Positions 32,648 through 47,874 of a stretch of 48,708 bases of DNA are shown here, one piece after another. This stretch comes from a candidate division TA06 bacterium (GTDB lineage Bacteria > Hydrothermota > DG-26 > E44-bin18), in NCBI GenBank assembly GCA_004376575.1, contig SOJN01000046.1, positions 1 through 48,708 of the forward strand, given 5' to 3'. Positions within the stretch are counted from its first letter, which is position 1. Each line of letters opens with the position of its first letter. The notes beneath the pieces were generated by a model. That model saw nothing but the letters and a program-made list of their open reading frames with translations, was not told the DNA's origin and did no database searches. The position numbers and the translations under genes were made by a program.

Positions 32648-32721
32648 CTTTTCTCTTGACCTAAGCCACACAATTGCATAGAATTCTGTTGGGGAGTGGC
32701 AATTCCGTCGTCTTTGAGGAC
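32648..32721 (-). repeat. Island repeat (about 75 bp), copy 1
   Basis: Read on the minus strand it gives CCTCAAAGACGACGGAATT, then CCACT, AACAGAATTCTATGC and GGTCAAGAG. This follows the order of the copy at 37291. The repeat has seven recognisable copies in this window, all downstream of 32.6 kb. Confidence 0.7.
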
Positions 32722-32855
32722 AAAATGCGATGCCCCACGAAGCTAGGTAGAGTGTAACCAGACGAAGCCACCGAAGGCGGAGGCTGGCGAAGTGGGGCAG
32801 TCAAGCAAAGCCTGACGGAGCCAAAAGAGGTGAAGTCAGGGGAGACGTAGTCGGG

Positions 32856-32904
32856 TCAGAAAGTCGAAAGTCCTTCGAGTATTCGAAGGGTCATGCACCG
32901 TTCC
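32856..32904. repeat. Hairpin plus GCACCGT composite, copy 1
   Basis: TCAGAAAGTCGAAAG is followed by TCCTTCGAGTATTCGAAGGG, a self-complementary hairpin, then by GCACCGTTCC. The same order occurs at 36368-36417. It lies just upstream of a lipoprotein gene. Confidence 0.65.
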
Positions 32905-32923
32905 TAAGGAATAGGAGGCAAAA

Positions 32924-33283
32924 ATGAAATCTTTGGTACTATTAATGATCGTAGTTCTCATCATTAGCGGCTGTTCTTCGGCGACAAGGCCACCTGGACA
33001 AGTCGTTGCATCGAAGAATAATTTTGAAAATGGGGTAAAACAGTATGAGCGAGGGCACATCAAACAAGCAATTCACCAATTCGAGAAGGCCATCGAAAAA
33101 AACCCCGCTAACTTCAAAGCATATTTCTACTTAGGTCTCTGCCATAAACAGAAAGGCACACCGAAGGCAGCCCTTAAGAATTTTCAAAAGGCCATTGACC
33201 TTAATCGCAATGATCAATCCTGGGTCACAAAGGTGAAGGCAGAGATGGAGGCGCCTGGTCGGAAAAAAGGAAAGAAAAAGTAG
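32924..33283 (+). CDS. Small TPR lipoprotein
   Basis: A 119-residue protein. An N-terminal lipobox (IISGCSS at residues 13-19) predicts a lipid-anchored signal peptide. The rest holds about two TPR units (GVKQYERGHIKQAIHQFEKAI, AYFYLGLCHKQKGTPKAALKNF) and a lysine-rich tail. The start is fixed by GGAATAGGAGGCAAAA. TPRs bind partner proteins; which one is unknown. It sits between repeats at the start of the repeat-rich region. Confidence 0.87.
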   Translation: MKSLVLLMIVVLIISGCSSATRPPGQVVASKNNFENGVKQYERGHIKQAIHQFEKAIEKNPANFKAYFYLGLCHKQKGTPKAALKNFQKAIDLNRNDQSWVTKVKAEMEAPGRKKGKKK

Positions 33284-33678
33284 TTCGCTTTACCTATAAC
33301 GAATGTTCGGTGCCAGGCTTTACATTTTTACATTTCGGCCGGTGCCCGTCGCTAGCCCCAGCTTTCACAAGGTTTTCCGGGGAGTGCACTAGTGAGCTTG
33401 GGACCAGTTTAGCCAATTCTGTTTACATTTTGCCGCAGTAGTCGATAGCGCCTTTATCCCCATACTTGTCCAAAACACAGCAACCTGGTGCTTGTCCCCA
33501 CGCCCTAGAATGAATTGGGGACGGTGCCCCTCGACGGTGCTCGGGATTTTCTACGTGATATTCTGACAAAATGGCTTCGACTTCCCTGGCAGGGAATTCA
33601 AGTTGACACGTTGAGTTGGGGTTTGTATCATCGTGCCGGGTTGCGGCTGGTCATTAATCAACGGGCGAGGAAAATCAC
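33284..33678. other. Intergenic region with a REP copy
   Basis: No coding region is supported. GGGGACGGTGC occurs at 33517-33527, followed by CCCCTCGAC. The stretch CCTGGCAGGGAATTC is locally palindromic. Confidence 0.5.
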
Positions 33679-34041
33679 ATGGGAAAGATTAATTGCAGAA
33701 TAGGTGAGATAAATGTTGTATGCACCGATGCTGAGAAATCTCTCAGATTTTATCGAGACATTCTTGGATTTGAAGTTCTTGGGGAAGACGGAGGTTGTTG
33801 GCATCTTGCCTGTGGAGAGACGAAATTCCTACTTCTACCATTTGCGGGCAGTCCTCGCAAACCGCCGAAGTACTGCGCAGAGGCATCCTTTTCGGTTGAT
33901 TTGCTAGTGTCAGATTTACAGGCAACTAAGAAGTTCTTCGAATCAGAAGGAGTAGATTTTGTTAAAGAAGTTTCCCCAAATGAAGAGAGATTCTTCATAC
34001 GAGATCCTGATGGATTGGTGCTTGAAATAATCCAATCATAA
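33679..34041 (+). CDS. VOC-family (glyoxalase/bleomycin resistance) protein
   Basis: A 120-residue vicinal oxygen chelate protein. Two beta-alpha-beta-beta-beta modules are visible: INVVCTDAEKSLRFYRDILGFE and FSVDLLVSDLQATKKFFESEGV, ending in RFFIRDPDGLVLEIIQ. The DPDG-E tail is typical and E116-like residues often bind metal. It may act as an isomerase, dioxygenase or resistance protein. The start has GGCGAGGAAAATCAC upstream. Confidence 0.85.
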   Translation: MGKINCRIGEINVVCTDAEKSLRFYRDILGFEVLGEDGGCWHLACGETKFLLLPFAGSPRKPPKYCAEASFSVDLLVSDLQATKKFFESEGVDFVKEVSPNEERFFIRDPDGLVLEIIQS

Positions 34042-34101
34042 CCACCGTATGGGTGAAAACGCATCATTTGAGGTTTGACCCCAAATATGATCCAAATAAG
34101 T

Positions 34102-35244
34102 TTATGATTTGTTTTCAATCCATTTTACCATTACATCAAGCGCAAGACCTATGTTTCCTATCTGACAATGATTTTGGGCTTGTTCTTCCTTTGTGAAAAC
34201 CCTGGCGGTCACAGATTTGGCATTGGTTAATGCTTTCACCTGCATGTCATGCATCTTAAAAGGAATAAAATGATCATCTCTTCCAGTAAGAATCAGAACA
34301 TCTTGTTTTACCAGATCTGAATGAAGATTTCTCTCATTAAGCTGTAACCAGACTTCGAATGCGTCCGCAGGTGTCTCTTTCTTTGTGATATACATTAGAT
34401 TACTGGTCATCCATGCTTCCATTCCTTTTCCCTTTTTGATTGTCTTCATTGCCATGTTATTTGTAAGATTCCTGAGATATTTGAAGAACCACAAATGCAT
34501 CTTTCGAAATACAACATTCATACTTTGCATATAATCAAATGCAATGCTTGAAGCAATCACTCTATTTATTCGTTGTTCAAATGCTGCGGCTCTGAAGCAA
34601 AACCATCCACCCATTGATACTCCAAGCCAGGTGACATTATTCTGCTTGAAATAATCCAAAACCGCTTTGGCAGGTTTCTCCCATTCATAATCTAACGCAA
34701 GTTCGTATTTTTTGCGGGCAGCGCCCTGCCCAGGACCTTCAAAAGCAATCACCTCATAACCATGGTCTGAAAAATATCTCATCCAGGAGTAGAACTCCTC
34801 GATGAAGGAATCAAATCCCCCATGCATGATTATGGTACTTTTCTTCCTTCCACTCGCGGGAGGCATTTTCATTGCCGGTAGAAATGCATTGTCATAGGGC
34901 ACTTTGAATCTTTCAATTTCATCTTTTTGAAAAACCCTGTAAAAAAGGTCTGTGAACTTATCATACAGCAATTCCTTGTCTGGATCTCCTGGAGTCACAT
35001 AGAACTCAGCTGCCCGGTAATAAAAGGCGGCGTTCATAAGCCTCTCTTCAGAAACGGCTTTTTCCGCCAGTCTCAGCATTTCCGTTTTCCATTCCCCAAA
35101 CGAATTTATCTTCTGACCCGCTTCTTTCATATCCTCAAACCTGGCGTATCCAAGGGAGTACCAACGATTTAGCTGGAAATTGTAGAGTTGGTCTTTATGG
35201 AACTGATGGTATCCGACCGGGAATGTGAACTTGTGTTTAGCCAT
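34102..35244 (-). CDS. Alpha/beta hydrolase with helical N-terminal domain
   Basis: A protein of about 380 residues in the esterase/FrsA-like branch of the alpha/beta-hydrolase fold. The nucleophile elbow is LGVSMGGWFC, the acid is expected in LTGRDDHFIP and the histidine in AQNHCQIGN. HGGFDSFIEEF marks the oxyanion region. The N-terminal 110 residues are helical with RAAEFY-type motif as in 2,6-dihydropseudooxynicotine hydrolase-like proteins. It is more AT-rich than its neighbours and stands alone, suggesting recent acquisition. GTG two codons upstream is an alternative start. Confidence 0.87.
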   Translation of the reverse strand: MAKHKFTFPVGYHQFHKDQLYNFQLNRWYSLGYARFEDMKEAGQKINSFGEWKTEMLRLAEKAVSEERLMNAAFYYRAAEFYVTPGDPDKELLYDKFTDLFYRVFQKDEIERFKVPYDNAFLPAMKMPPASGRKKSTIIMHGGFDSFIEEFYSWMRYFSDHGYEVIAFEGPGQGAARKKYELALDYEWEKPAKAVLDYFKQNNVTWLGVSMGGWFCFRAAAFEQRINRVIASSIAFDYMQSMNVVFRKMHLWFFKYLRNLTNNMAMKTIKKGKGMEAWMTSNLMYITKKETPADAFEVWLQLNERNLHSDLVKQDVLILTGRDDHFIPFKMHDMQVKALTNAKSVTARVFTKEEQAQNHCQIGNIGLALDVMVKWIENKS

Positions 35245-35317
35245 ATTCACTACTTCAGTTTATTAGGTATGCAATGATGGAATTGAGAATTCATTCAGCA
35301 CCGTGTGAAGGCCATTT

Positions 35318-35341
35318 TGTCAAATGTCAAGCACCGTCCCC
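35318..35341 (-). repeat. REP copy (RAYT-type), full length
   Basis: AAATGTCAAGCACCGTCCCC, the reverse complement of the GGGGACGGTGCTTGACATTT unit that brackets the transposase at 40.7 kb. Confidence 0.75.
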
Positions 35342-35412
35342 AGGCTGAGTGGGTAAGTATCTGAAACACAGCTACATGGAAACACACACTAATATGCTAA
35401 GAGGGCGAAATG

Positions 35413-35434
35413 TCAAATGTCAAGCACCGTCCCC
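35413..35434 (-). repeat. REP copy (RAYT-type), full length
   Basis: A second AAATGTCAAGCACCGTCCCC unit, same orientation, about 90 bp after the preceding copy. Confidence 0.75.
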
Positions 35435-35536
35435 AATCCCCACTCTGGAAAAGGGAACGGAGAGGCTGGGACCGCCTACGCTTCCCACCGGCGAATCCGC
35501 AACCTCCAGCTTCGTCGGTCAAGATTCGACCCCTTT

Positions 35537-35788
35537 TCAGAGAAGCCTTTTCTTCATAAAAGCCCTCCCCGAAGAGCTCTTCAAGTATTTCTCGAAATCG
35601 GTTGCCTTCCTCTTCTCGCTGAATACCACATAAGTTAACAGTTCCCAGGGAACGTATCTCTTGGTATGCATCTGAGAGCCCGAATTGTGTTCTGCAATCC
35701 TCCGATCGACATCGGTTGTCAAGCCCATATATGTTCTGTCGGGATCACCAATAGCCCTTAATATGTACACGTAATACTTGTCAGACAC
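35537..35788 (-). CDS. Small GIY-YIG nuclease-domain protein
   Basis: A compact GIY-YIG protein of 83 residues from an internal GTG. YYVYILRAIG and TYMGLTTDVDRRIAEHNSG are the N-terminal core, followed by WELLTYVVFSEKRKATDFEKYLK. The YvG rather than YIG spelling and length fit the UPF0213/YhbQ-like proteins. The full frame continues further upstream but is low-complexity and probably not translated. Members are structure-specific or mismatch-like nucleases by fold, but biochemical roles vary. It lies in the repeat-rich area. Confidence 0.75.
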   Translation of the reverse strand: MSDKYYVYILRAIGDPDRTYMGLTTDVDRRIAEHNSGSQMHTKRYVPWELLTYVVFSEKRKATDFEKYLKSSSGRAFMKKRLL

Positions 35789-35944
35789 TTGAAATACTCG
35801 ATCGCAGCAGCGATGCACACAATCCAGCCGGACAGGCCGCACAGACGGTGAGCAAGGCACCATAGAACTGGCGGAAGACGGGCTTGTCCGTCGTAGCCTT
35901 GCCAATTGACTGAAAACGTCTCACCAAGTTTAGGCGAAGACGGA

Positions 35945-36034
35945 CGGAGAGGCTGGGATTCGAACCCAGGGTGAGGTATTATCCCCACAACCGCTTAGCA
36001 GGCGGCTGCCTTCGTCCAGCTCGGCCACCTCTCC
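35945..36034 (-). tRNA. tRNA-Ser (anticodon GCT)
   Basis: A 90-base cloverleaf on the reverse strand. GGAGAGG pairs with CCTCTCC, the D arm has TGGCCGAGCTGG, the anticodon arm is GCCGC-CTGCTAA-GCGGT, a long variable arm is typical of tRNA-Ser, and the T arm has GGGTTCGAATCCC. GCT decodes AGC and AGT. CCA is not encoded. Confidence 0.96.
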
Positions 36035-36181
36035 GTGCTCTGAACTTCTATTTTTCGATAATACCCTAACCCGCCCAAAAAATCAAACCCATTACATGGG
36101 CGCACTCCATCTGAGTCGACCTATTGGTCTTCAATTTCGTAATTTCTCAATTTCCTAATTTCGTGTCTTGAGGATTAGGAG

Positions 36182-36265
36182 CGGAGGGCGAGGGATTCGA
36201 ACCCCCAAGTCCCGAGGGACGGTGGATTTCAAATCCACTGCCTTACCAGTTAGGTCTAGCCCTCC
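36182..36265 (-). tRNA. tRNA-Ser (anticodon TGA)
   Basis: An 84-base cloverleaf on the reverse strand with acceptor GGAGGGC, anticodon arm GTGGA-TTTGAAA-TCCAC and a long variable arm (GTCCC-TCG-GGGAC). The T arm has GGGTTCGAATCCC. The anticodon TGA reads Ser codon TCA; it is not a selenocysteine tRNA (TCA). CCA is not encoded. A second Ser tRNA is about 150 bp away. Confidence 0.95.
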
Positions 36266-36367
36266 GTGTACGGAATGATGATACTGTCGGCCAATTGGCG
36301 TGTCAACTCGAATCAGAGGACATGATTAGTACTCAACACCATGCTTTGCCAGCGTGCAGTAGAGAAA

Positions 36368-36417
36368 TGTCAGAAAGTTGAAAATCCTTCGAGTATTCGG
36401 AGGGTCACGCACCGTCC
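36368..36417 (-). repeat. Hairpin plus GCACCGTCCCC composite, copy 2
   Basis: TCAGAAAGTTGAAAATCC continues into TTCGAGTATTCGGAGGG, then GCACCGTCCCC. It fuses the CCTTCGAGTATTCGGAGG hairpin with the REP core, the same order as at 32856. Confidence 0.75.
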
Positions 36418-36477
36418 CCAGTATACTCTCAGGCAGCAGGGCCGCGGTACTCAGGCTCGCTCGTCAGAAACGGGACG

Positions 36478-36972
36478 CTATTGTGTGCCGGCAATCGGTT
36501 TGGTGCTATTCCAAATCGCGCGTACTTCTCTCCACGCCCCGTCGGACTGGCGTTGCCAAATGCCAATGAAATTGACTTGGTCGCTAATCCCCTCGCCCCC
36601 GCCTTCTGGGACAATCACCCATTCGTATGAGCTACTTTCAAATGCCCAGTCACCAGAGACTATAACCTCTCTTTCCACTGTCTTAAGCTCTGTCATAGTG
36701 AAGTGATCGAAAAAGCCTTGCAGGAAACTGCGAATTTCTTCCTTTCCGGTTTTCCTTTCTACATTCGGCGGCATGAGAATCATATCATCCGCAGAATTGG
36801 CAATTATGACATCAACATCTTCGGATAACCAGGCTGCGTCTACCTCCTTTCTAGCCTGATCTAAGGCTTCTTTGCTCGTTGAATTTTCCCTTTGGCAGCC
36901 ATAAGTAAAGAAAAGCAGGATTAGAGTGACAATCCAAGTGGTTCTTGTGATCAACCGAATTGATTCTTTCAT
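36478..36972 (-). CDS. DUF4440/SnoaL-like lipoprotein
   Basis: A 164-residue protein. The lipobox is FTYGC at residues 22-26, so it should be a lipid-anchored protein. The mature part follows the DUF4440/SnoaL pattern: EVDAAWLSEDVDVIIANSADDMILMPPN, SYEWVIVPEGG and W..VRAIWN. Such proteins are dimeric ligand-binding or isomerase-like folds without a common reaction. The start has AAGGAGGAGAAA upstream. Confidence 0.85.
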   Translation of the reverse strand: MKESIRLITRTTWIVTLILLFFTYGCQRENSTSKEALDQARKEVDAAWLSEDVDVIIANSADDMILMPPNVERKTGKEEIRSFLQGFFDHFTMTELKTVEREVIVSGDWAFESSSYEWVIVPEGGGEGISDQVNFIGIWQRQSDGAWREVRAIWNSTKPIAGTQ

Positions 36973-37660
36973 TTTCTCCTCCTTACTGGTTAGACCAGCG
37001 TTAAGATTTCGAGTAACCCCAAATGTATCATTGGGGAGTTAATTTGCATAAAATGTCTGTGGACATCACCTCCTTCAACATTGAGTCATTGAAATTGCGA
37101 GCCGCCTAACATAAGTTTATCTGTACTAATAGAATCAAATCATGGCTATTCTTAACCACATAAACCTCCTGCGCTCCTGTTTTGCCGGAGTCGGCACGAG
37201 CAAAATCTCAGCAGTGTCTGGACAACACCTCTGAATTCGTTTTTAGAGTTATGAGAGATTGGTGATGGTGCTCGACTTTGTGACATTCCTCTCCTCAAAG
37301 ACGACAGAATCGTCACTTCCCAGAAAGAATTCTATGCCATCGTGAGGCGCAAGTCAACGAAACAATACCGTTGTCACTGCGATAGACTACTTGTGAAACT
37401 CGGTGCAGGACTGGTCGCTAACCTTTGTCCAGACCCGCAGGAGCCAAAGAGCCTTGCCCGCGCACTCAGGCATCGTCACCGGGTTTCATCTCACTAACCA
37501 CCTCCCGACTTCCTGGGACCCGTCGGGAACCTAATGTCCCTTCCCTTGGCCTCGAGTATGGCCCTCCTGCAGGATTTCTTGAAAACCTCGTCGTTTGGAT
37601 ACTCAAGCACTGTTACTACTGCTTTGTGGACATACCTCGGTGGTTGACACTATGACAGTT
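36973..37660. other. Intergenic region carrying an island repeat
   Basis: No coding frame is supported. Copy 2 of the island repeat is at 37291-37363. The rest (37380-37660) shows no recognisable gene. Confidence 0.5.
37291..37363 (+). repeat. Island repeat, copy 2 (best reference)
   Basis: It begins CTCCTCAAAGACGACAG, then AATCGTCACTTCCCAGAAAG, AATTCTATGCCATCGTGAGG and CGCAAGTCAACGAAAC. GACGA and TCGTC form a short hairpin and GAATTC is a local palindrome. Other copies are at 32648, 38971, 42354, 44359, 46585 and 47311. Confidence 0.8.
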
Positions 37661-37865
37661 CTATTCCAGTTTGCGCATTCGAGCCTTTGCCCTTCTGTAC
37701 AACTGACCCAGCAAGTAGTGCTTCAGTGACTGAAACGGCGAGTAACGCACAATCTCCGAATACGTTAGGCCTGCTCTCTCCTTCAATAAAACCAAGAGCT
37801 CATCTCTCAATCTCGTTTCTCTGCTCCCGGGATGCGCCCTTGTAGGTCAGTTTGGTTCTTTCCAC
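37661..37865 (-). pseudogene. Internally deleted RAYT (transposase) relic
   Basis: A non-coding remnant of the transposase at 40.7 kb. The first eleven codons (GTG-started VERTKLTYKGAS) match VRRARLTYKGAY. After a junction and frameshift, the 3' codons read RLRDELLVLLKERAGLTYS, then PFQSLKHYLLGQLYRRAKA, ending in a stop. They match the end of the intact transposase (RRLREELMIMLKDKAGLTYS, PFQSLKYSTLGKLYIRAKA). About 230 internal codons are gone. The composite hairpin repeat lies just upstream of its start, at 37891-37940. Confidence 0.82.
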
Positions 37866-37890
37866 GACACCGTAATACAGACCTACTGTC

Positions 37891-37940
37891 TGTCAAAATG
37901 TCAAGTCGAAGATCCTTCGAGTATTCGGAGGGTCGAAGAT
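37891..37940 (-). repeat. Hairpin composite, copy 3, beside the RAYT relic
   Basis: TGTCAAAATGTCAAG is followed by TCGAAGATCC and TTCGAGTATTCGGAGGGTC. The hairpin matches copies 1 and 2; the expected GCACCGT core is weaker further on (CCACGGTCCCC, about 37960-37970). Confidence 0.65.
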
Positions 37941-38018
37941 GCCGAGCTTGTCGAGGGCCACGGTCCCCAAGCATCTAAAGCGCGGAGCGCGTATATCGGA
38001 GTCGGTTGAATGCTCTGG

Positions 38019-38741: not shown

Positions 38742-38827
38742 CTACTTTTGCCTCAATCACTCATTCTGATGATATTGGACATATAACATTGTTTATGCCG
38801 ATCCGCATAACAGCCCATGACTTCCTT

Positions 38828-38838
38828 GGGGACGGTGC
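38828..38838 (+). repeat. REP copy (CCCC subtype)
   Basis: GGGGACGGTGC followed by CCCTTCAC, the second subtype of the repeat also seen at 33517 and 46480. Confidence 0.65.
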
Positions 38839-38970
38839 CCCTTCACAACTCAGAACGTAGATCGCAGAACTTAGATCGAAAAACACGTGACTGCTTGGGC
38901 CTGGTACTCGGAACAGCCCTTATCTTCGGTCCTTCCACAGACCCAGGATCTCTGCTTGGTATTTTGCCCT

Positions 38971-39037
38971 GGAAGACGACAGAATCGTCACCTCTCAAAA
39001 GGCATTCTATGCCATCAGACTTTATGGGTCAACGAAA
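38971..39037 (+). repeat. Island repeat, copy 3
   Basis: GAAGACGACAGAATCGTCAC, CTCTCAAAAGG, CATTCTATGCCATC and GGTCAACGAAAG follow the reference copy. It lies at the start of a segmental duplication. Confidence 0.7.
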
Positions 39038-39285
39038 GAATATGGCTTGAGGGCCAATGCCAGATTTGATTCCCTGACCTTTTGGGACCGAGATGGGCTC
39101 AGCCGAAAAGACCCGGCCAGACCATTACTCCTTTCTGATGTTCTGGCAAAGTGTTTACAGTTTCAGTTTGTCTGACGAGTGGTAGAACATACTCCGGTTG
39201 CAAAACAGTCAACCCAGGCACGCCTATCGGATGCCTGTAGAAAAGAACTTGCTCTGCCATCCAGTGCGCGGCTACAATAGGTTCG

Positions 39286-39423
39286 ATGCCTGCAGTCGTT
39301 GAGAAGAACACATGGAACCGCCGTGCAAGGCCCCTAAAAATGGGCCTGGGCATCCTGCAGGTTCTTATTGGCCTAGGTGGCGGTGGGGGTCATATTGACA
39401 CCGATTTTGAGTATGTTGTCTAG
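39286..39423 (+). pseudogene. Truncated copy of the 44.6-kb membrane protein gene
   Basis: An ATG-started frame of 45 codons reads MPAVVEKNTWNRRARPLKMG, then LGILQVLIGLGGGGG. The gene at 44556 reads MTPAAEKNTSNRRARRLRMG, then QGILQVLIGLGVVGGG. The match then stops and the frame ends after about 46 codons, without the later membrane segments. The upstream DNA is also duplicated, including GGGACCGAGATGGGCTCAG and GGCTACAATAGGTTCGATG. Confidence 0.82.
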
Positions 39424-39537
39424 ATGCTCCACCACACCTTTGAACACGGCGACTGGGACAACCTTGATTGGGCGAAGCCTGGCAAGCAGACGGACCCCAC
39501 ATTCTAGAGTGACAAAAGCGAAAGTAAGGGGGATAGA

Positions 39538-40587
39538 ATGAAAACACTTATAACACTTGTTACTGTTTTCAGTTTGTCTTTGTGGTCTGCAACTTCCTTT
39601 TGCTCCAATGGTGTATTAGAGAAGTACAAATACCGCTACGCATCTTTTGAAGAAGCTGATGTTGATACGGTTATCAAATTACTGTACCATTCTGATGCAG
39701 AGGTCAGAAATGAAGCAGCCACACTTGTTGATGTAGCATTCTCCAAGGGATTTGTCTCTGCGAGGAAAGCTCTACCACGTCTTATCGAAATCCTGGAATC
39801 AGACAGCAACAGCACTGTCCAAGTCTCTGCTGCCATTGCTCTCGGCAGGTCTGGACAGAGAAGAGTAGTAGGACATTTGATTGAGGCGGCGAAAGTCAAC
39901 GATTCTTCACAGCCCGTGCTGATAGCCGCAATAATGGACTACTTCCCGAAGGAAGCAGCAACCAAGAAAGAACTGCATGAAGTGGCCAATATAGCCGTCC
40001 AAAACATGAACACTACGCACTATTGGCTGCGCTTTAGGTCCGTCGAATGGGTTGGTGAATACAGGGATAGGGATGAGCGCATGAAACGACTTTTTCTGCA
40101 GTCGTTCATCGACCATTATGAGCATCCTGTACCGTCATTCAAGGATAGCATCATACCCGGCACCAGCGGCAGAACCCAGTGGGAGACATTGTCTGAGTGG
40201 TACGAAGTATATCTTCTTTCCTTTGAACCAGATTTGCTGATTCCGCTGCTGGGCCATTCAAATCTACAGATAAGACTGAAGGTTGCTCTAACATTAGCCA
40301 GGTTGCACGATAAGAGGAGCATTGGTCCGCTCATCGAAATCCTGAGGAATGGAAGTGACTATGACCATGGATCTAGATGCCACGCTGCCAGAGCTTTGCC
40401 AAGGGACAAGAGGAGCATTTCGGCCTTGAAGGATGTCATGAATGACCAATTTGCCATCGAGGGCAAGGACGGTAAGCCGTACAGGGTAGTCGCCGACTGT
40501 GCGTATGAAGCCTTGATGAGGATGGGCATAGTGGTTGATGAACCTCAGGATATAAGGGACTCAAGGCCCCTACGACACAGATTATAG
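39538..40587 (+). CDS. Secreted HEAT-repeat protein
   Basis: A 349-residue protein. Residues 1-22 form a signal peptide (MKTLITLVTVFSLSLWSATSFC), so it is exported. About seven HEAT-like repeats follow (LLYHSDAEVRNEAATL, VSAAIALGRSGQRR, LRLKVALTLARLHDKRSIGPLIEIL). The pattern is alpha-solenoid binding. Its 3' end lies only a few bases before the first REP unit at 40598, so its original tail may have been lost. A GGGGGATAGA site precedes the ATG. It is not closely related to the HEAT pair at the start of the window. Confidence 0.87.
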   Translation: MKTLITLVTVFSLSLWSATSFCSNGVLEKYKYRYASFEEADVDTVIKLLYHSDAEVRNEAATLVDVAFSKGFVSARKALPRLIEILESDSNSTVQVSAAIALGRSGQRRVVGHLIEAAKVNDSSQPVLIAAIMDYFPKEAATKKELHEVANIAVQNMNTTHYWLRFRSVEWVGEYRDRDERMKRLFLQSFIDHYEHPVPSFKDSIIPGTSGRTQWETLSEWYEVYLLSFEPDLLIPLLGHSNLQIRLKVALTLARLHDKRSIGPLIEILRNGSDYDHGSRCHAARALPRDKRSISALKDVMNDQFAIEGKDGKPYRVVADCAYEALMRMGIVVDEPQDIRDSRPLRHRL

Positions 40588-40597
40588 ATTGAGACTT

Positions 40598-40645
40598 GGG
40601 GACGGTGCTTGACATTTTAGACTTGGGGACGGTGCTTGACATTTT
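40598..40645 (+). repeat. Two direct REP copies upstream of the RAYT
   Basis: Two copies of ACTTGGGGACGGTGCTTGAC extended by ATTTT lie head to tail with a 7-bp gap. They end about 25 bp before the transposase start, the usual relation of REPs to their transposase gene. Confidence 0.85.
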
Positions 40646-40670
40646 GGCAGAACGAGTTTAACATTGGGCA

Positions 40671-41573
40671 GTGCGCAGAGCAAGACTAACCTATAAGGGT
40701 GCGTACCACCACGTGATGAATCGGGGTCATGGCGGAGAGAAGATACTCCTGGATGAGGTAGCCAAGACCTGTTTTCTCGAGATCCTCGAGCGCAGGTCCG
40801 TGGCCCAGAAGATAAGAATCTTCACGTACTGCATTATGGACAATCACTATCATATCGTTCTGCAAAACTCCAGTGGAAAGCTGTCCGAATTCATGAAGCA
40901 ACTGAATGGGGAATATGGAGCCTACTACCGAAGGAGAGCTGGAGGATCCGGCTATGTGTTTCAGGGTAGGTTCAAATCAACACTCATACAAGAAGACAAG
41001 TACATGGATATGGCAATCCTCTATACTTTGCTGAATCCGGTGCGCGCGCGAATAGCGAGTAGTCCCTGGCGATACAAATGGTCAAGCATAAGGGAGTATT
41101 TCACTCACAGGAGGGCTACGTTCATCGACAGCGGATTCGTCGAAGAACTGTTTGGAGAAAAGAAGGTTCTGAGGAGTCTACTGAAGGAGTGGACAGAACA
41201 AGAACTACCCGTAGAGAAGACGAGGATGGGGTACGCTCTTGGAGACGACAGCTTCATCGAAGCTGCTATCAGGAGGTTTGACCGACGGAAAAGGAAATCG
41301 AAGTCCAGGCGGATGCGGATGGAAGAGCACGATTTCCCAGCAGTTGACAAGCTGATAAGGGATTTCGAAAAAAGGAAGCAGCTGGGAATAGAGAAGATAG
41401 ATCCAGGGACTAGAGTCGGGAGGAGACTCCGGGAAGAGCTAATGATCATGCTGAAAGACAAGGCTGGGCTGACATACTCAAGAATAGCAGAATACGCGCC
41501 GTTTCAGTCACTCAAGTACTCCACACTCGGAAAGTTGTATATAAGGGCGAAGGCAAAAGGCTACAAGAAATAG
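40671..41573 (+). CDS. REP-associated tyrosine transposase (RAYT)
   Basis: A 300-residue Y1/HUH transposase of the RAYT (TnpA_REP) type. YHHVMNRG opens the domain, YCIMDNHYHIVLQ carries the HUH metal-binding pair HYH, GYVFQGRFKS follows, and LYTLLNPVRARIA contains the probable catalytic Tyr. A C-terminal helical extension (about 185-300) ends in LTYSRIAEYAPFQSLKYSTL, similar to the DnaA-like ends of many such proteins. The start is GTG. It is bracketed by GGGGACGGTGC repeats. Such enzymes mobilise or maintain REP elements but are often single-copy and domesticated. Confidence 0.92.
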   Translation: MRRARLTYKGAYHHVMNRGHGGEKILLDEVAKTCFLEILERRSVAQKIRIFTYCIMDNHYHIVLQNSSGKLSEFMKQLNGEYGAYYRRRAGGSGYVFQGRFKSTLIQEDKYMDMAILYTLLNPVRARIASSPWRYKWSSIREYFTHRRATFIDSGFVEELFGEKKVLRSLLKEWTEQELPVEKTRMGYALGDDSFIEAAIRRFDRRKRKSKSRRMRMEEHDFPAVDKLIRDFEKRKQLGIEKIDPGTRVGRRLREELMIMLKDKAGLTYSRIAEYAPFQSLKYSTLGKLYIRAKAKGYKK

Positions 41574-42260
41574 GGGAAAATGCCAAAATGCCAAGCACCG
41601 TCCCCGCACATAGATGGCTGCCATAATGATTTGATTCTGGATTAGCAATCCTGATATAGTTGAGTCCGCTACTCCCTTAAACCAGTCTATTTCTGTCTCA
41701 TTGACCAGATAGATGCAAATATTCCTCGCAACAATTGTACCGAATTTTCTTAGAAAGACTTCCCGGAGTTTTCCATATTCTTTGTCGTCAGCAGACTTTG
41801 GATCACCCTTTGTTTGATAAAGAAGGATATATGTTACATCTATGGATTCCTTGTTTGGGACTACTCGTTCTTTTTCAAATGACAATATTTTTTCAACCAC
41901 GTGGCTTAAGGGCAATCCTTCCCTATTATTTTCTTGAGTCAAAAGCCCTTGTGACTTTAGTCTTTTGATAATTTTATCAGCAATGTCTGCTTTGAACCTC
42001 TCCTGATCAGAGATGTATCGTTGTTCACAGATTTCATACCATGAATCCCTCGCCTCGCGTATCATTTTTCTTTTTCTAGGGTTACTACCAAAGGTTTCGT
42101 GGCAAGTCGGGCAAAGGGGAGCTGCATTATCAAAGGTGTTCGTACCGTTTTCTTGCTCTGGAATGATATGGTGGACTTCAATCCCCAGTGCTTGGCACAG
42201 ACAGCAAGAAAAGTGACTTTTCTTTCTAACATCTGTTTTTGTTTTTTCGGAAAAAGGCAT
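41508..42260 (-). pseudogene. HNH endonuclease gene with transposon-derived 3' end
   Basis: The N-terminal 60 residues are a complete HNH nuclease motif: CCLCQ, EVHHIIPEQENG, NAAPLCPTCHETFGSN. The C-terminal part (about 90-215) is an unrecognised helical and beta domain. From about residue 219 the reading frame runs through the inverted REP and then the antisense strand of the transposase end. The last 32 codons are therefore foreign. The gene was evidently truncated by the transposon insertion, and whether the product is still active is unclear. HNH proteins of this kind often belong to defence or mobile elements. Confidence 0.82.
41586..41605 (-). repeat. Inverted REP copy downstream of the RAYT
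   Basis: AAATGCCAAGCACCGTCCCC is the inverse of the units at 40598 and 40625, so the transposase is flanked by oppositely oriented REPs. It is also read as the last codons of the gene on the reverse strand. Confidence 0.8.
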
Positions 42261-42353
42261 TATGTTCTTCTATTTTAGTCTTCATAGCAATGATTATCTT
42301 GAACCGTACGATACTCGATGTGCAGTGGACGGCACTTCACTTCTTGGCACTAT

Positions 42354-42410
42354 CTCCCCAAATACGATGGAATCATCACTTCCCAGAGGTTTATGCCTGT
42401 CCCCACGAGG
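42354..42410 (+). repeat. Island repeat, copy 4 (divergent)
   Basis: TCTCCCCAAATACGATGGAA, TCATCACTTCCCAGAG and a TATGCC match the reference copy; the rest is divergent. Confidence 0.5.
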
Positions 42411-42416
42411 TTCGAG

Positions 42417-43076
42417 CTATTCCTGTCTCGCCATTTCACGTTGAATCGTTGCCAGGACCTTCTGGGCCTCTTCCTGGCTGTAGTCATAACAGTCATAGAC
42501 TGGGTAAATATAACGTACGTTTCTGTTAGTGTTCAACTTGAAGGTGCAATATGTATCACGGTAGGAGCCGAACACGTCCCTATATAACACCAGCAAATGC
42601 AGGAAGAACGTGCCGTCCGCTCCTACTCTTGATTCCTCAAGCTTCCACATCTGTGCATACGAGAACGAGTCCTTAGGAGGGATGTACTTAGAGAACCGTC
42701 CAGACAAGATGTCAAGGCATGCTGGGAATGTCGCACATGTGTCCAGCAGTGAGTCTCGCACACTGACCCTATCCATGCCGAATTCATAGACTTCGGAGAC
42801 GAGGTGGATGACCTCTGCCAAGGTACTCTGCTTGTTCTTCATCTTGACATCAGCTGTTACCGCTTCTGGCCGAGCACCAATAAACTGACCGTGGCTCAAT
42901 TCGAGGGCAAGAAAAGCCCTGAGTGTCTCTTGGTAGCTGCTTCTCGTGAGCGTCGTCTGTTCCTTCATTTCTCGCAACATGTAGAAAGTGAGAGCAACGT
43001 ACACACACGTGACCACCAATACCAGAGCTGGCGTCCAGTTCTTGATCCAGTTCGGAAAAGAAGCTCTAGCTCCCAT
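42417..43076 (-). CDS. Single-TM protein of unknown function
   Basis: I do not recognise a family. The 219-residue product has one hydrophobic segment near the N-terminus (WTPALVLVVTCVYVALTFYML, about residues 14-35). A charged coiled-coil stretch (EMKEQTTLTRSSYQETLR) and a cytoplasmic or extracytoplasmic domain follow, with no catalytic motif. It resembles the single-TM proteins found next to accessory or defence genes. GGAG at good spacing precedes the ATG, and a TTGACA/TACTCT promoter lies upstream. Confidence 0.75.
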   Translation of the reverse strand: MGARASFPNWIKNWTPALVLVVTCVYVALTFYMLREMKEQTTLTRSSYQETLRAFLALELSHGQFIGARPEAVTADVKMKNKQSTLAEVIHLVSEVYEFGMDRVSVRDSLLDTCATFPACLDILSGRFSKYIPPKDSFSYAQMWKLEESRVGADGTFFLHLLVLYRDVFGSYRDTYCTFKLNTNRNVRYIYPVYDCYDYSQEEAQKVLATIQREMARQE

Positions 43077-43144
43077 TGGGATGTCTCCAAGACAACTCGA
43101 TCTTCAAGCCAAACAAGAAGCTCCCTCTTGTTCAGCCTACTTAT

Positions 43145-43173
43145 AGAGTATCAAGAAGTTACACAAGTGTCAA
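43145..43173 (-). promoter_or_regulatory. sigma70-type promoter for the single-TM gene
   Basis: On the reverse strand a perfect TTGACA is followed after 17 bp by TACTCT. The transcript start would lie about 60 bases before the ATG at 43076. Confidence 0.6.
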
Positions 43174-43615
43174 TGCTCGACCCGTCGCTCTTGCTTCTCC
43201 ACAATAAGGTGGACTGGATTCAGCATGGTCTGACTCAGGGCACGAAGGAGTCATTGCACAGGCGGATGGCGTACGTAGCAGGCCTTCGACAACAATGTCA
43301 TAACGTCGCGCCAGGCACCAACGCAGACCATCAGGGAGGGGTGGCCAGCCTCTGTCCAGATCGGGAACCCCGCTTGCCCTCAGCCCTTCGGTCAACCAAG
43401 CTCGAACTAAGGCAAAGGGAAAGATTGAAGGGCCGGGCTCACACCGGGGCAGTCTGACGAAGCTATCCGAGCAAGGGCAGGCAAGAGCTAAAGATTTTTG
43501 CCCGGCGCTCGTGTGCCTGTAGCCAACCGGAGCCGGGATGGTCTCAGGTCAGTGAGATCGGGGGCAAAGGTCTACAAGTTTACGACTGTACCCACCGTTT
43601 TTCATACAGCAGATG
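43174..43615. other. Intergenic region without a supported gene
   Basis: A GC-richer block than its flanks. A reverse-strand frame of 78 codons has no ribosome-binding site or recognisable domain. Several GCCCGG-type inverted words suggest structured or decayed DNA, but nothing definite. Confidence 0.4.
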
Positions 43616-44356
43616 CTAGCCGAACAATTCCTTCTCGATGATCTTCATATACTTGTTGACATAGAACATGTCTGGTTCATGCCTGGACGCTCGCACTCTG
43701 ATGTCAAATTGCGGTTCGGCGATGTTGTTGCAATCAAACAGAATTAGGCCTACGCCGAAGATCAAACACAGCGCATCGAGTTTTGCGATGTCATCCTGAG
43801 CAGAGGTCTTTGGAACAACTATATACGATTTATGGCTGAACAGCTTATATGAACACGCCTGGCCGAAGGCTGTAATCAGATCTTTTGTGTTCGTCTTTAT
43901 CTCCGCGGAGACTATGTCTGTCGGAAACTTCACGATATCGCTCCTACGTGATTCGCGTATGCCAATCACATCTGGCGTTCCCCACTTGTCCCTGAACTTG
44001 TTCCCTCCCAGTGGCATTGCCTTAGTACATTCCTCGAGTTCGCTTTTCAACCATTCCGCGAAAGGCCCATAAAAGCACTGTTCCTCTATCCCTTCGGGTT
44101 CTGGGGAAATGGGCTCCGGCACAACCAGCTCTTCGTCCCTGAACTTGGTGTGCCTATAGAGCCCTCGTGCAGGCTTGTAGACTTGCTCGGGCAACAACCC
44201 CTCTAGCTCCCAAATCGTTCTTTCCACCGTCTTGAAAGCGACATCAGGGAGCTCTTCATCTATCTTCCTTACGAGACGAGAGTAACGGACACCTTGGGGC
44301 TCCGACAGTAATATGTCTAATGCCCTAGATAGGATCCTATCTTTCTTCGTTGCCAT
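43616..44356 (-). CDS. PD-(D/E)XK nuclease-like protein with N-terminal winged helix
   Basis: A 246-residue protein. Residues about 1-70 form a helical or winged-helix domain (KKDRILSRALDILLSEPQGV, FKTVERTIWEL). The centre has GTPDVIGIRES and IVSAEIKTN, the D...ExK pattern of PD-(D/E)XK nucleases, followed by AFGQACSYKLFSHKSYIVVP. This resembles restriction-like nucleases of accessory regions. Next to an HNH gene it may be part of a decayed defence region, but no partner methylase or ATPase is seen. Confidence 0.78.
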   Translation of the reverse strand: MATKKDRILSRALDILLSEPQGVRYSRLVRKIDEELPDVAFKTVERTIWELEGLLPEQVYKPARGLYRHTKFRDEELVVPEPISPEPEGIEEQCFYGPFAEWLKSELEECTKAMPLGGNKFRDKWGTPDVIGIRESRRSDIVKFPTDIVSAEIKTNTKDLITAFGQACSYKLFSHKSYIVVPKTSAQDDIAKLDALCLIFGVGLILFDCNNIAEPQFDIRVRASRHEPDMFYVNKYMKIIEKELFG

Positions 44357-44358
44357 TG

Positions 44359-44431
44359 TCTCCCCCGAGTCGCCGGAATCGTCACTTCCCAGAATGAATT
44401 CTATGCCATCGTGGGGCCCAAGTCAACGAGA
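44359..44431 (+). repeat. Island repeat, copy 5
   Basis: TCTCCCCCGAGTCGCCGGAA, TCGTCACTTCCCAGAATG, AATTCTATGCCATCGTGGGG and AAGTCAACGAGAG follow the reference. It is directly upstream of the preceding nuclease gene and begins the downstream half of the segmental duplication. Confidence 0.75.
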
Positions 44432-44555
44432 GATTGTGACTTGAGCGACAATGTCAGGTCTGACTCCCTGACGTTTTGGGACCGAGATGGGCTCAGTGGG
44501 ATGTTTGCAGAAAAGGCCTTGCTCTGCCAGCCAGTGCACGGCTACAATAGGTTCG

Positions 44556-44993
44556 ATGACTCCAGCCGCTGAGAAGAACACATCGAACCGCCGTGCAAGG
44601 CGCCTGAGAATGGGGCAGGGCATCCTGCAGGTTCTTATTGGCTTAGGTGTGGTTGGGGGAGGGATTGGTCTTGTCTCGAATCCATCGGGCGCTAATCTGG
44701 GTTTCCGGGTTGAGTGGCTAGCAGGATCGCCGTTCTCGAACTATCTCATCCCGGGCATCGCGCTGCTCGCCGTGAACGGTCTGGGTAGTCTTGCGGGAAG
44801 CATGGTGTCCTTCGCTGGGAAACGGTTCGCCGGAGAGACCGCTGCTGCACTCGGTCTGTTCATGATGGCGTGGATCGCTGTGCAGATGTACTGGATTGGA
44901 CTATCTTCTTGGCTCCAGCCCTTGTTCTTCGGCCTGGGTCTACTCGAGGTGGTATTGGGTTTTTGCGTAAGAAGAGATCTGCATAGCAGCTAG
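44556..44993 (+). CDS. Four-TM membrane protein A
   Basis: I do not recognise a family. The product has 145 residues with four hydrophobic segments at about 20-42, 63-85, 93-113 and 118-136 and an arginine-rich N-terminus (NRRARRLRMG) that should face the cytoplasm. Two further small membrane protein genes follow within 50 bp gaps, suggesting one transcript. The start and first 34 codons are duplicated as a truncated copy at 39286. The frame further upstream is rejected because the copy preserves the same ATG. Confidence 0.75.
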   Translation: MTPAAEKNTSNRRARRLRMGQGILQVLIGLGVVGGGIGLVSNPSGANLGFRVEWLAGSPFSNYLIPGIALLAVNGLGSLAGSMVSFAGKRFAGETAAALGLFMMAWIAVQMYWIGLSSWLQPLFFGLGLLEVVLGFCVRRDLHSS

Positions 44994-45008
44994 AGGCTAG
45001 GAGGCACA

Positions 45009-45464
45009 ATGGCACTTCAACCAACAGTTATCACATGGATACTCGTCATCTTTGGGGCCATTACGATTCTGGGGCTTCTGTACGCACAACTCCTAATGTT
45101 ACTGCAGCCGCACGGCGAAAGAGCCAAGAACCTTCTTATCGGCAAAGGAGAAGAGTGGCGGGGCAAGACCCATTTCCGCTACTCCTATGCATTCGCCTGG
45201 GTCGATTGGATGATCTGGGCACCGCTGTTAGTCTGCGGCAGTATAGGAGTGCTGCTGGGACAGCCATGGGGTTATGTGTTGTGGGTCGGAGCAGGAACCA
45301 TTTCGCTGTACATCAACATTGTCCTGTGGATTGCAGAGAAAGAATACGTATATCCCTCATGTGGACCACTCGTCTACTACACCTACTATTGGGGGTTCTT
45401 TGTGTATTGGGGTATACTCACCATAGCGTATTCCGCAGTGCGACTGTCGGGTGTGGCATTCTGA
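45009..45464 (+). CDS. Four-TM membrane protein B
   Basis: I do not recognise a family. The 151-residue product has four hydrophobic segments at about 6-33, 63-85, 88-108 and 123-146. Aromatic residues cluster in the last third (YYTYYWGFFVYW). TAGGAGGCACA precedes the ATG. It lies 15 bp after protein A and 45 bp before protein C, so the three probably form one membrane unit. Confidence 0.75.
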   Translation: MALQPTVITWILVIFGAITILGLLYAQLLMLLQPHGERAKNLLIGKGEEWRGKTHFRYSYAFAWVDWMIWAPLLVCGSIGVLLGQPWGYVLWVGAGTISLYINIVLWIAEKEYVYPSCGPLVYYTYYWGFFVYWGILTIAYSAVRLSGVAF

Positions 45465-45509
45465 TGGCGGGGTCTCTTCCATTTAAACAACTGACATGGG
45501 AGCCGCAAA

Positions 45510-45938
45510 ATGAACTTGATCTGGGGAATGATCCTTCTTGTTCTTTCTTTGATCGGCTGGATTGGGCAGGTCATCACTGTGTTTCGGCCGGTAACCGCCG
45601 CAAAGATGGGTTTAACCGAGCCTGAGGCTAATGTGGACCCAACGTTTTTCGCAGATGCCCGGGGTGAAGCGATTTGGGATGCAGTAAGCCTCTGGACCTT
45701 GACCGTTGCAGCCATACTGCTCATACTGGACAATCCTTCTTGGGCCTATTTCGGTTTGGTTGGCAGCGGCTCATATCTGTACTTCGCGGGGCGCGGGACT
45801 GTGGTTCGCCTCGTAATGCAACGCCGTGGTATTCGTATTGGACTGCCACAAAACCTGAAAGTGATCCGTGTGTTTCTAACCCTATGGGGATTGATGGCAA
45901 TCGGCACGATCGTCTTGGCTGTGAATACAATAATGTAG
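45510..45938 (+). CDS. Four-TM membrane protein C
   Basis: I do not recognise a family. The 142-residue product has hydrophobic segments at about 3-25, 57-75, 77-93 and 118-138, with a polar loop EPEANVDPTFFADARGEAIWD that could be a short extracytoplasmic region. It closes the run of three small membrane proteins. No ATPase, nuclease or enzyme is next to the run, so its role is open. Confidence 0.75.
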   Translation: MNLIWGMILLVLSLIGWIGQVITVFRPVTAAKMGLTEPEANVDPTFFADARGEAIWDAVSLWTLTVAAILLILDNPSWAYFGLVGSGSYLYFAGRGTVVRLVMQRRGIRIGLPQNLKVIRVFLTLWGLMAIGTIVLAVNTIM

Positions 45939-45985
45939 AGCGCAGCAACCGGTGACATCTGAGAACTGATCCCATATCCGCCGAT

Positions 45986-46417
45986 TCATTTTACCTCAAC
46001 CTTGCACTTTTGCCCATCCCACAGTGTTTCGCGCACTGCAAAACTAAGATTATCGTTCAGGCCCTTAATCATACCTTCCATTGGGTCAAGACAATAAAGG
46101 TTACATGGCTTCTGTGCACCAATTTTCTTGGCAAACCCACAAAGTTTGCAGGCTTTTGCCTCTGCAGAAAATCCCTCTTGCTCAGATATTATCTCCCAGC
46201 TTGCGCAGTTAAAGATTTCGGAAAGCTTTAGAAATACCTCTTCCGGTTGGGTAATACCAAATTGCTCCGCTTTCATTGTTCCTGTGAGCATCTGCTCTTT
46301 TTTCTTCTGCTGCGTTACCTTTTCCAAAACTCCTTCTCTGCCCATTTGAAGTACCGCATCAGCCAATACTCCTGCATAGGTGAACTGAAGAATTTGAAGC
46401 TTTTTCTCGTTTTCCAT
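45986..46417 (-). CDS. Cysteine-containing protein of unknown function
   Basis: The chosen ATG is preceded by AAAGGAGGAGTG. The 143-residue product has a helical N-terminal half with repeated glutamine and lysine, then CKLCGF and CNLYCLDPMEGM. The pattern CxxC...CxxxC recalls the L-2-amino-thiazoline-4-carboxylic acid hydrolase family and similar cysteine-containing proteins, but this is a weak match and metal binding is only likely. It stands alone. Confidence 0.65.
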   Translation of the reverse strand: MENEKKLQILQFTYAGVLADAVLQMGREGVLEKVTQQKKKEQMLTGTMKAEQFGITQPEEVFLKLSEIFNCASWEIISEQEGFSAEAKACKLCGFAKKIGAQKPCNLYCLDPMEGMIKGLNDNLSFAVRETLWDGQKCKVEVK

Positions 46418-46479
46418 TTGAAACACTCCTCCTTTTTGCAAGGTATTTTGCCGTTGCTATATACCTTTTTGTGACTTCA

Positions 46480-46490
46480 GGGACGGTGCC
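46480..46490 (+). repeat. REP copy (CCCC subtype)
   Basis: GGGACGGTGCC followed by CCTCTAC. It has the same order as the copies at 33517 and 38828. Confidence 0.6.
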
Positions 46491-46584
46491 CCTCTACATT
46501 TAAGATTGAAGATTTATGATTTAAGATTCCCGAAGATCCCAAAAGATTTGAGTAATTGGGAAGGGTACTTGACTTTTCGACATC

Positions 46585-46656
46585 GTCTCCTCAAAGACGG
46601 CTGAATCGTCACTTCCCAAACAGGATTCTATAGAGTTGTCCGCCAGAAGTCAAGGC
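46585..46656 (+). repeat. Island repeat, copy 6
   Basis: TCGTCTCCTCAAAGACGGCT, GAATCGTCACTTCCCAAACA, GGATTCTATAG and AGAAGTCAAGG follow the reference copy. CTTGACTT upstream at about 46568 is complementary to AAGTCAAG at the right end, giving possible inverted termini. Confidence 0.75.
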
Positions 46657-46684
46657 TGATGCCGGGCTTGACTTATTCAAAACA

Positions 46685-47275
46685 CTATTGTGAGTGTTCT
46701 TTCACAAAATCTGTTGGGTCGAGCCAGCCCAATTCGGTAGGATGAACAGACGTGTAGCCAGCCATCCAACGGTCATCACCGTCGTCCGGATAATCATACC
46801 TGCTCCCTTTACGAATAGCAAAATGCAGATGACAACCCCAGTCAGGATATCCATCTCCGCTTCCGTCCTCATCTTTATCAGCTAGATAACCGATGATCTG
46901 ACCCTTTTTGACTTTTCCTTCCGTTATTTTGTGTCTCCTGGTACTCAAATGACCATACAACGAATATACCTTCGCAGTCGGATGTTCAATTGTAATCAGC
47001 TATCCATACCCACCTCCTGGGCCTGAATAACTGATGTGCCCATCGGCTGCTGCATAAACAGGAGTACCAGGACTTCCGCTGGCGTCCTCACCAGCATGAT
47101 AATTTCTGCTGAATCTTATATTTATCTTGACGTATTTCTGAGACACAAAGTATTCCTGAAGTGGAAACCTAAAGGATGTGGAAGCTCTGTGCCCGCCATC
47201 GTAAATGGTCTCGGCGTCTCTCTCACACCCACAAAAGGCAAATGGTAGCAGACACAATAAGATGAACTTTTTCAT
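46685..47275 (-). pseudogene. M23-family lipoprotein peptidase interrupted by an amber codon
   Basis: A secreted M23 (LytM-like) metallopeptidase. The lipobox is FAFCGC, HAGED provides one histidine and aspartate ligand, LYGHLS and HLHF give the other histidines, so the zinc site is complete. The frame is broken by a single in-frame TAG (47000-47002, codon 92) within GGGYG-x-LITIEH, right before the catalytic core's second half. No frameshift is needed; the downstream frame continues for about 104 codons. A nonsense mutation is the simplest reading, because TAG is used as a normal stop elsewhere (for example rimO and the RAYT). Confidence 0.83.
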
Positions 47276-47310
47276 TCGGACCTTAGGTATGGTGGGTACT
47301 ATCCAAGATT

Positions 47311-47382
47311 TCTTCCTCAAAGACGACAGAGTTGTCACTTCCCAGACATTATTCTATCTCACCGTCCACAAGGAAGTCAATG
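47311..47382 (+). repeat. Island repeat, copy 7
   Basis: TTCTTCCTCAAAGACGACAG, AGTTGTCACTTCCCAGAC, ATTATTCTAT and GGAAGTCAATGCG follow the reference. A second right-end fragment with GCCATCGTGAGGCATAAGTC and AACGAAAC is at 47492-47522. Confidence 0.7.
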
Positions 47383-47874
47383 CGAATGTAGACGCGCATT
47401 TGCCTGTAATCGCAAACCTCGTGATTTGCGGTCTTTGGTTTGATTTTCTATTTTCGATTTTCGATCTTCGTCTTCATGTCTTGGTTAGTGCCATCGTGAG
47501 GCATAAGTCAACGAAACAATGCAGCTGGGGGTGCCGGAGCCCGGGTCGTCTGAGCAGGCTATGTCGGTCAGGACGTGCTCAATCTGTACCGGATTCATCT
47601 GTGATAATACCCTGATAACGAGTATCAAAACATGTCAAAGACTGAGATATGCAATGAATCGAAAAGCAAAGACACGCTACAGGGCCATATAACTCAGGAC
47701 TCGCGGTGTGGTCGCGATGGGCACCAGAGAGGCGAAGGCCCCACACGTAGCGAACATCTCTAGGTCAAGCCCCTCACCGACTTCAAGATGCCCCTTTACG
47801 GAGACTAGACTTCGTGATAGAATTGTGCTGGCATTACTGATGAAAGGCAGATGTCTGGCACACCAGTTTCTGCG
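47383..47874. other. Intergenic region without a supported gene
   Basis: Contains a TTTTCGATTTTCGATCTTCG word tract at about 47449-47472, a right-end fragment of the island repeat, and no recognised coding sequence. Confidence 0.5.

Follow-up and report, generated by a model that had tools for sequence, protein, structure and literature searches.

A Likely Propagated Promoter-Leader Module before Accessory Genes of a Candidate Division TA06 Bacterium

What kind of element can occur in seven homologous copies at 32.65-47.38 kb of one bacterial contig, together with a truncated eighth piece, all in a single island? The question is raised by contig SOJN01000046.1 (assembly GCA_004376575.1) of a candidate division TA06 bacterium; the window, i.e., the whole stretch of DNA analysed, comprises its 48,708 nucleotides. 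An earlier sequence-only reading described the seven copies as an unfamiliar repeat, possibly a set of non-autonomous elements. The copies themselves stand: all seven were recovered by a repeat finder, by a single-sequence search and by a profile search, and the shared words named in that reading are correct. The repeat finder assigned six of the seven to one direct family of 71 nt, with 61-87% identity to the reference copy; copy 1 was retrieved as inverted arms relative to the other six because it sits on the opposite strand. The earlier single-sequence search found all seven window copies at E <= 1.2e-4, and a one-copy query gave 17 matches in the genome. A sequence-only profile yielded 36 genome matches at E <= 0.1, 35 of them at E <= 1.2e-5, spread over 14 of the 150 contigs. 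This profile was built from 25 copies, leaving about ten genome copies unused, and the seven window copies, being among the 25, match by construction (E = 6e-10 to 5e-21).

The window's contig (C46) and C110 hold seven copies each, C45 has five, C43 three, and the others one or two each. Copy direction is uniform inside each contig, the sole exception being window copy 1. The same profile finds no copy at positions 1-32,600 of the window, in agreement with the earlier remark that none is seen in the first 32 kb. Genes recognised in that part are those of RimO, a XerD-type recombinase and AccD; hence the repeat is part of an accessory island that begins past the backbone genes. The suggestion that further copies should exist beyond the window was borne out within the genome (about 35 copies) and failed across other genomes. 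No copy was found in the 146 other genomes of the phylum (147 searched, including its own), among them the nearest relatives, one of the same order and one of the same class. Its 25-base core pattern has no match among the genomes of 84,980 species or in viral contigs, and a single-copy query has none in plasmid or phage collections; the many-genome searches used stricter filters, the pattern scans were exact, and the collection scans may omit records very near to the genome itself. Within the reach of these collections, then, the family is private to the lineage, all searches outside the genome having been empty. In a tree, the copies fall into two broad groups and one tight group, with no finer resolution.

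The anatomy of the repeat becomes apparent on the strand opposite to that of the sequence-only reading. Intact copies have the form TTGACT-N17-TAGAAT, followed by a conserved leader, the sequence TTTGAGGA and ATG or GTG 5-6 nt further, the alignment of the copies being CGTTGACTT-(15)-TAGAAT-(about 8)-GGGAAGTGACGATTCTGTCGTCTTTGAGGAnAAAATG. The repeat thus looks like a sigma-70-type promoter, its boxes spaced at the optimal 17 bp, that is followed by a leader, a Shine-Dalgarno-like TTTGAGGA and a start codon. The spacer between TTGACn and TAGAAT, TACAAT or CAGAAT is 17 bp in 26 of the 27 copies with a recognisable -35 box, and 18 bp in the remaining one. ATG or GTG stands 5-6 nt past the GAGG-like box in 25 of the 31 copies where this box was located, the intervening bases being variable. 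Column conservation is 0.94 for the -10 box and for TTTGAGG, 0.85 for the -35 box, 0.84 for the leader, and 0.53 for the first 12 spacer positions. Promoters of the same class are present elsewhere in the host: a match of at least 10 of 12 positions to TTGACA-N16-18-TATAAT occurs in seven of 27 non-island upstream regions, versus 0.7 expected from shuffles. Departures from this plan include four copies with unrelated AT-rich sequence in place of the -35 half, and one subtype (C112, C52, C111, C134) without a start codon at the expected position. The window copies and associated features are listed in Table 1.

Table 1. Repeat copies, the genes that follow them, and associated features in the window
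Feature	Position	Strand	Sequence features	Gene that follows
Copy 1	32653..32730	+	TTGACC-N17-TAGAAT ... TTTGAGGACAAAATG	Same strand, start 32924, TPR lipoprotein-like
Copy 2	37281..37360	-	Most typical of the window copies; -35 37352-37357; -10 37329-37334; SD (GAGGAG) 37291-37296; ATG 37284-37286	Same strand, start 36972, SnoaL/DUF4440
Copy 3	38957..39035	-	Promoter boxes intact, ATA in place of the start codon	Same strand, start 38741, methyltransferase
Copy 4	42345..42423	-	Degenerate: leader and GTG retained, -35/-10 half unrecognisable	Same strand, start 42260, HNH endonuclease
Copy 5	44350..44429	-	Own ATG 44354-44356 is the start codon of the ORF that follows	246-aa ORF 43616-44356 (-)
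Copy 6	46578..46656	-	Followed by REP-like AAGTCAAGTACC	Same strand, start 46417 or 46441
Copy 7	47304..47383	-	18-bp spacer	ORF 46685-47275 (-), start 47275, M23 peptidase-like by eye, in-frame stop near 47000; probably a pseudogene
Truncated eighth copy	47489..47527	-	-35 half alone (CGTTGACTTATGCCTCACGATGGCA), ends before -10	
Duplicated stretch upstream of the copy 3 -35	39028..39389		Duplicate at 44422-44659 upstream of copy 5; 85-87% identity, two blocks	
IS200-like (Y1) RAYT-type gene 40671-41573	40586..41608	+	Inverted GGGGACGGTGCTTGACATTTT motifs on either side, REPtron-like	

The position of the copies relative to genes agrees with this anatomy. The next predicted gene lies on the same strand for 29 of 34 copies, compared with a fraction of 0.55 at random intergenic points of the same contigs (p = 1.6e-4), and the neighbour gene on the -35 side shows no strand bias (22 of 34). 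Gene starts were taken from a coding-score caller, one gene was included manually on account of its HNH match, and one downstream gene is counted for two of the 34 copies. Five intact-looking copies have no gene before them or point towards a convergent gene at its 3' end (C110:7524, C77:8619, C45:5177, C49:47923 and C80:2780). Since conservation tracks the boxes, the distance to the start codon is kept and the orientation of downstream genes is biased, the promoter anatomy is more plausibly function than coincidence. The early suggestion that copies near gene starts may carry promoters or terminators is accordingly upheld for promoters and dropped for terminators, because no hairpin is conserved in either half of the repeat according to RNAalifold.

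The families encoded downstream are accessory-like: TPR, DUF4440/SnoaL, methyltransferase, HNH, HTH_26, DUF2283, PD40 propeller, subtilase, PDZ, HEAT and DUF4037. They include a Cro-type HTH protein with a small neighbour and a DUF2283 gene with a small neighbour. Apart from the gene shared by two copies, only two pairs of downstream proteins are related, one at 80% identity and the other weakly (28% over 96 residues). In the 80%-identical pair the upstream module halves differ between the members. The C110 member has its own AGGAGG-AATC-TTG about 50 nt past the module, and the C45 member has a REP-like sequence there instead, with the frame open from the module ATG into the gene. Direct in-frame use of the module start codon is also possible for window copy 5 and for a methyltransferase of C110, and in the other copies the module ATG begins a short frame of 5-52 codons. 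We infer translation from the module start codon, most strongly for these fused cases.

Taken together, these observations make it likely, in our view, that the repeat is a propagated promoter-leader module that serves accessory genes and was multiplied within the lineage independently of them. It would be a compact expression module with the promoter at its left edge, a leader of about 40 nt, a Shine-Dalgarno sequence (TTTGAGGA) and the start codon at its right edge; both transcription and translation are predicted to proceed from this module. Where the link is most direct, the start codon of the module would serve the gene as well. Elsewhere the gene would start at its own codon, and the module may contribute the transcript along with a short leader ORF and a spacer, either REP-like or a hairpin. 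The copies may later have exchanged halves, by gene conversion or homologous exchange in the short identical stretch around -10, and so produced mosaic promoters.

The edges of the homologous unit and the mosaics bear on how the family spread. Among 326 pairwise alignments through the core, 102 end at most 3 nt from the -35 edge and 93 at most 3 nt from the start-codon edge; since alignments tend to stop at these two places, the homologous unit roughly coincides with the functional one. Mean pairwise identity is 0.66 in the core and 0.32 and 0.31 in the flanking 30 nt. Alternatively, the edges could be sharp because purifying selection preserved the functional part of duplications that are old, and not because this part moved by itself. 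Not every copy moved as an 80-bp unit, because some of the sharing represents longer segmental duplication: copies 3 and 5 have a duplicated stretch of several hundred base pairs in common, and eight copies (group A) share about 140 bp of upstream sequence. Some copies are mosaics, as three copies of C110 illustrate. The copies at 9793 and 30814 are identical upstream of -10 (44/44) and about 50% identical downstream, whereas those at 9793 and 22212 are 20% identical upstream and 92% identical from -10 onwards, the leader being the same at 42/42 positions and the genes behind them unrelated. The simplest account of such mosaics would be that halves were swapped between copies inside the common stretch GGGATAGAATCA. 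Copies within one contig are only slightly more alike than those of different contigs (0.70 vs 0.67, p = 0.05), so local tandem duplication fails to explain the family. Given this, and as neither terminal inverted repeats nor target duplications were found, we favour the view that the family spread by recombination or gene conversion, along with segmental duplication, rather than by transposition.

Another explanation would be a regulon: accessory genes under common control would share the repeat as promoter and as operator or leader, selection for one regulator that reads the leader (for example, at GACGA-N5-TCGTC) would keep the copies alike, and ordinary duplication and convergent tuning would account for their spread. 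The leader is indeed as conserved as the promoter boxes, which exceeds the need of a neutral 5'UTR, and about half of the copies carry the GACGA-N5-TCGTC dyad. However, in the second large group the corresponding AACCAGAGTATCGTC breaks the dyad, and no covariation was observed. Homology extends outside the boxes, which argues that the copies share descent and did not converge, and the near-identical post-start segments and swapped halves indicate copying. We therefore regard such a regulon as improbable.

The reading of the repeat as a MITE-like non-autonomous element, mobilised by a transposase in trans and carrying its outward promoter incidentally, accords with the many copies, with their discrete edges and with the Y1 transposase gene of the island, besides which the genome has six further Y1 matches. 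It is nevertheless quite unlikely, as terminal inverted repeats and target duplications are at the control level. Over 29 copies the longest exact inverted match between the ends averages 5.2 nt, against 4.7 nt in controls, so terminal inverted repeats were not found, and target-site duplications, which the sequence-only reading had proposed to look for, do not rise above background (3.4 nt vs 3.5 nt for mismatched pairs). Of the complementary outer ends that it had seen in copy 6, one is the -35 box (TTGACTT) and the other a separate adjacent REP-like motif (AAGTCAAG). The proposed search for a source transposase gave none consistently tied to the copies: the only RAYT of the island carries a different flanking motif, and this REP-like motif adjoins just seven of 35 copies. 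Moreover, random insertion would not give 29 of 34 copies facing the next gene, unless selected. With neither element ends nor target duplications nor a consistent transposase, and with a fixed orientation to the next gene, the notion of non-autonomous elements was abandoned.

The RAYT was also considered as the source of the repeat and rejected, no copy lying directly before the Y1 genes that were examined (in the window and in C112) and few copies adjoining the REP-like motif. As far as tested, the Y1 RAYT-type gene is a neighbour of the repeat and not its source. The identity of the repeat with REP or REPIN sequences was likewise rejected, since the module is about 80 nt long and without a conserved dyad, versus a 20-40 nt palindrome tied to a RAYT. 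As a separate observation, the REP-like core GCACCGTCCC occurs ten times in the window, always in intergenic regions and always beyond 32.8 kb.

If the repeats were attC-like recombination sites between the cassettes of an integron array, one would understand why co-oriented copies occur each 1-3 kb in several contigs amid cassette-like gene content, why the repeat edge GTTGACT fits GTTRRRY at six of seven positions, and why one contig, C77, has one canonical attC next to a copy as well as the C-terminal remnant of an integron integrase. Yet there is no common fold, the conserved part is at the 5' end of genes, whereas attC lies at the 3' end, and no genome match reaches the curated cut-off (TIGR02249) for an intact IntI; we consider this interpretation very unlikely. 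A scan of the island contigs for RYYYAAC/GTTRRRY hairpins found a paired hairpin at the edge of one of 35 copies. This only perfect edge hairpin (C110:16475-16553) is missing from the other copies and is probably due to chance. On C77 (locus L011) a GNAT-like gene (9057-9581, -) has at its 3' end the attC-like site GCCTAACCAGCGCG...GCCGTTATGC (9010-9062), and the integrase remnant, 24 residues long, is at the contig end (9774-9845). Together they may be a trace of a former integron. An integron array of the repeats was rejected, as these two features are not at the repeats and no attC arrangement extends across the copies. Finally, a structured RNA (a riboswitch, a leader or a small-RNA gene), to which a conserved transcribed leader preceding genes might point, is the least probable of all and was rejected, as at the gathering score Rfam reports only three tRNAs in the window and no match for the repeat, RNAalifold on 25 copies predicts zero pairs, and the short hairpin is broken in half of the family.

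Several other contents of the islands were recorded. A NosD/beta-helix gene with a type IX-like C-terminal domain (L009 10167-12882, L010 2504-5240, L013 5676-7496) is duplicated two to three times at about 78-82% DNA identity, with a partner gene in L009 and L010, and every contig with such a duplicate also has module copies. Locus L014 (1-2610) encodes a long protein of internal repeats of about 70 residues (VGDGNGDGE..VYGAN) with a secretion-type C-terminus. Pairs resembling toxin-antitoxin or abortive-infection systems are found in L015 (2656-3176) and L011 (6957-8542), consisting of a small protein with a DUF2283 protein and of AbiEi/AbiEii-like proteins as judged by eye. In the window, the accessory island also contains two genes for tRNA-Ser (GCT and TGA), at 35942-36265.

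Foreign genes usually come without a working promoter upon arrival in a new host. Placed before accessory genes that are mostly unrelated, a high-copy module private to one lineage would exemplify one way in which a genome may overcome this obstacle to the expression of foreign genes, and the mosaics would be a record of exchange between promoters. A bolder version of the propagated promoter-leader module is a dedicated promoter-donor system, by which the lineage would equip recently acquired accessory genes with a standard module, and recombination would move and re-assort its halves with a preferred exchange at -10. We put this forward as an unlikely extension; if true, islands of foreign genes would be switched on by one shared, interchangeable part, much as the genes of an integron are by its single fixed promoter. 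On a more general note, what looks like a transposon-type repeat may be an expression signal on the other strand.

Several known systems resemble the described family to a different extent. REP/REPIN sequences with their RAYTs (PMC3733652, PMC8049555) are similarly dispersed intergenic repeats in islands, and the Y1 gene of the window with its inverted REP-like motifs belongs to the same picture; however, the module is neither palindromic nor 20-40 nt long, and the REP-like motif does not adjoin most copies. In the Vibrio superintegron, gene-less cassettes contain promoters that are dispersed in the accessory array, activate the downstream cargo and are bounded by attC (PMC11014356); promoters are scattered among accessory genes here too, in contrast without an attC arrangement. 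Horizontal regulatory transfer, or regulatory switching, reported by Oren et al. (2014) and outlined in PMC9944727, also exchanges intergenic regulatory DNA apart from the flanking genes. It is described there as allelic replacement between strains at a single locus, whereas the present family is spread over many loci within a single genome. The closest likeness is with the "mobile" or "propagated" promoters of Matus-Garcia, Nijveen and van Passel (2012) and van Passel et al. (2014), summarised in PMC8049555, PMC9208149 and PMC9944727 as short promoter-bearing repeats before non-homologous genes. As in those, the repeat is multi-copy in one genome, is oriented as a promoter upstream of genes that are non-homologous, and has a recognisable promoter inside, and it may have multiplied in the lineage apart from the genes that it drives. 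As features that may set it apart, the unit here spans the region from the -35 box to the start codon, including the Shine-Dalgarno sequence, reaches about 35 copies, resides in accessory islands and forms half-swapped mosaics. Thus the repeat is most likely a new family of this known class of promoters, as the class is portrayed in the later papers.
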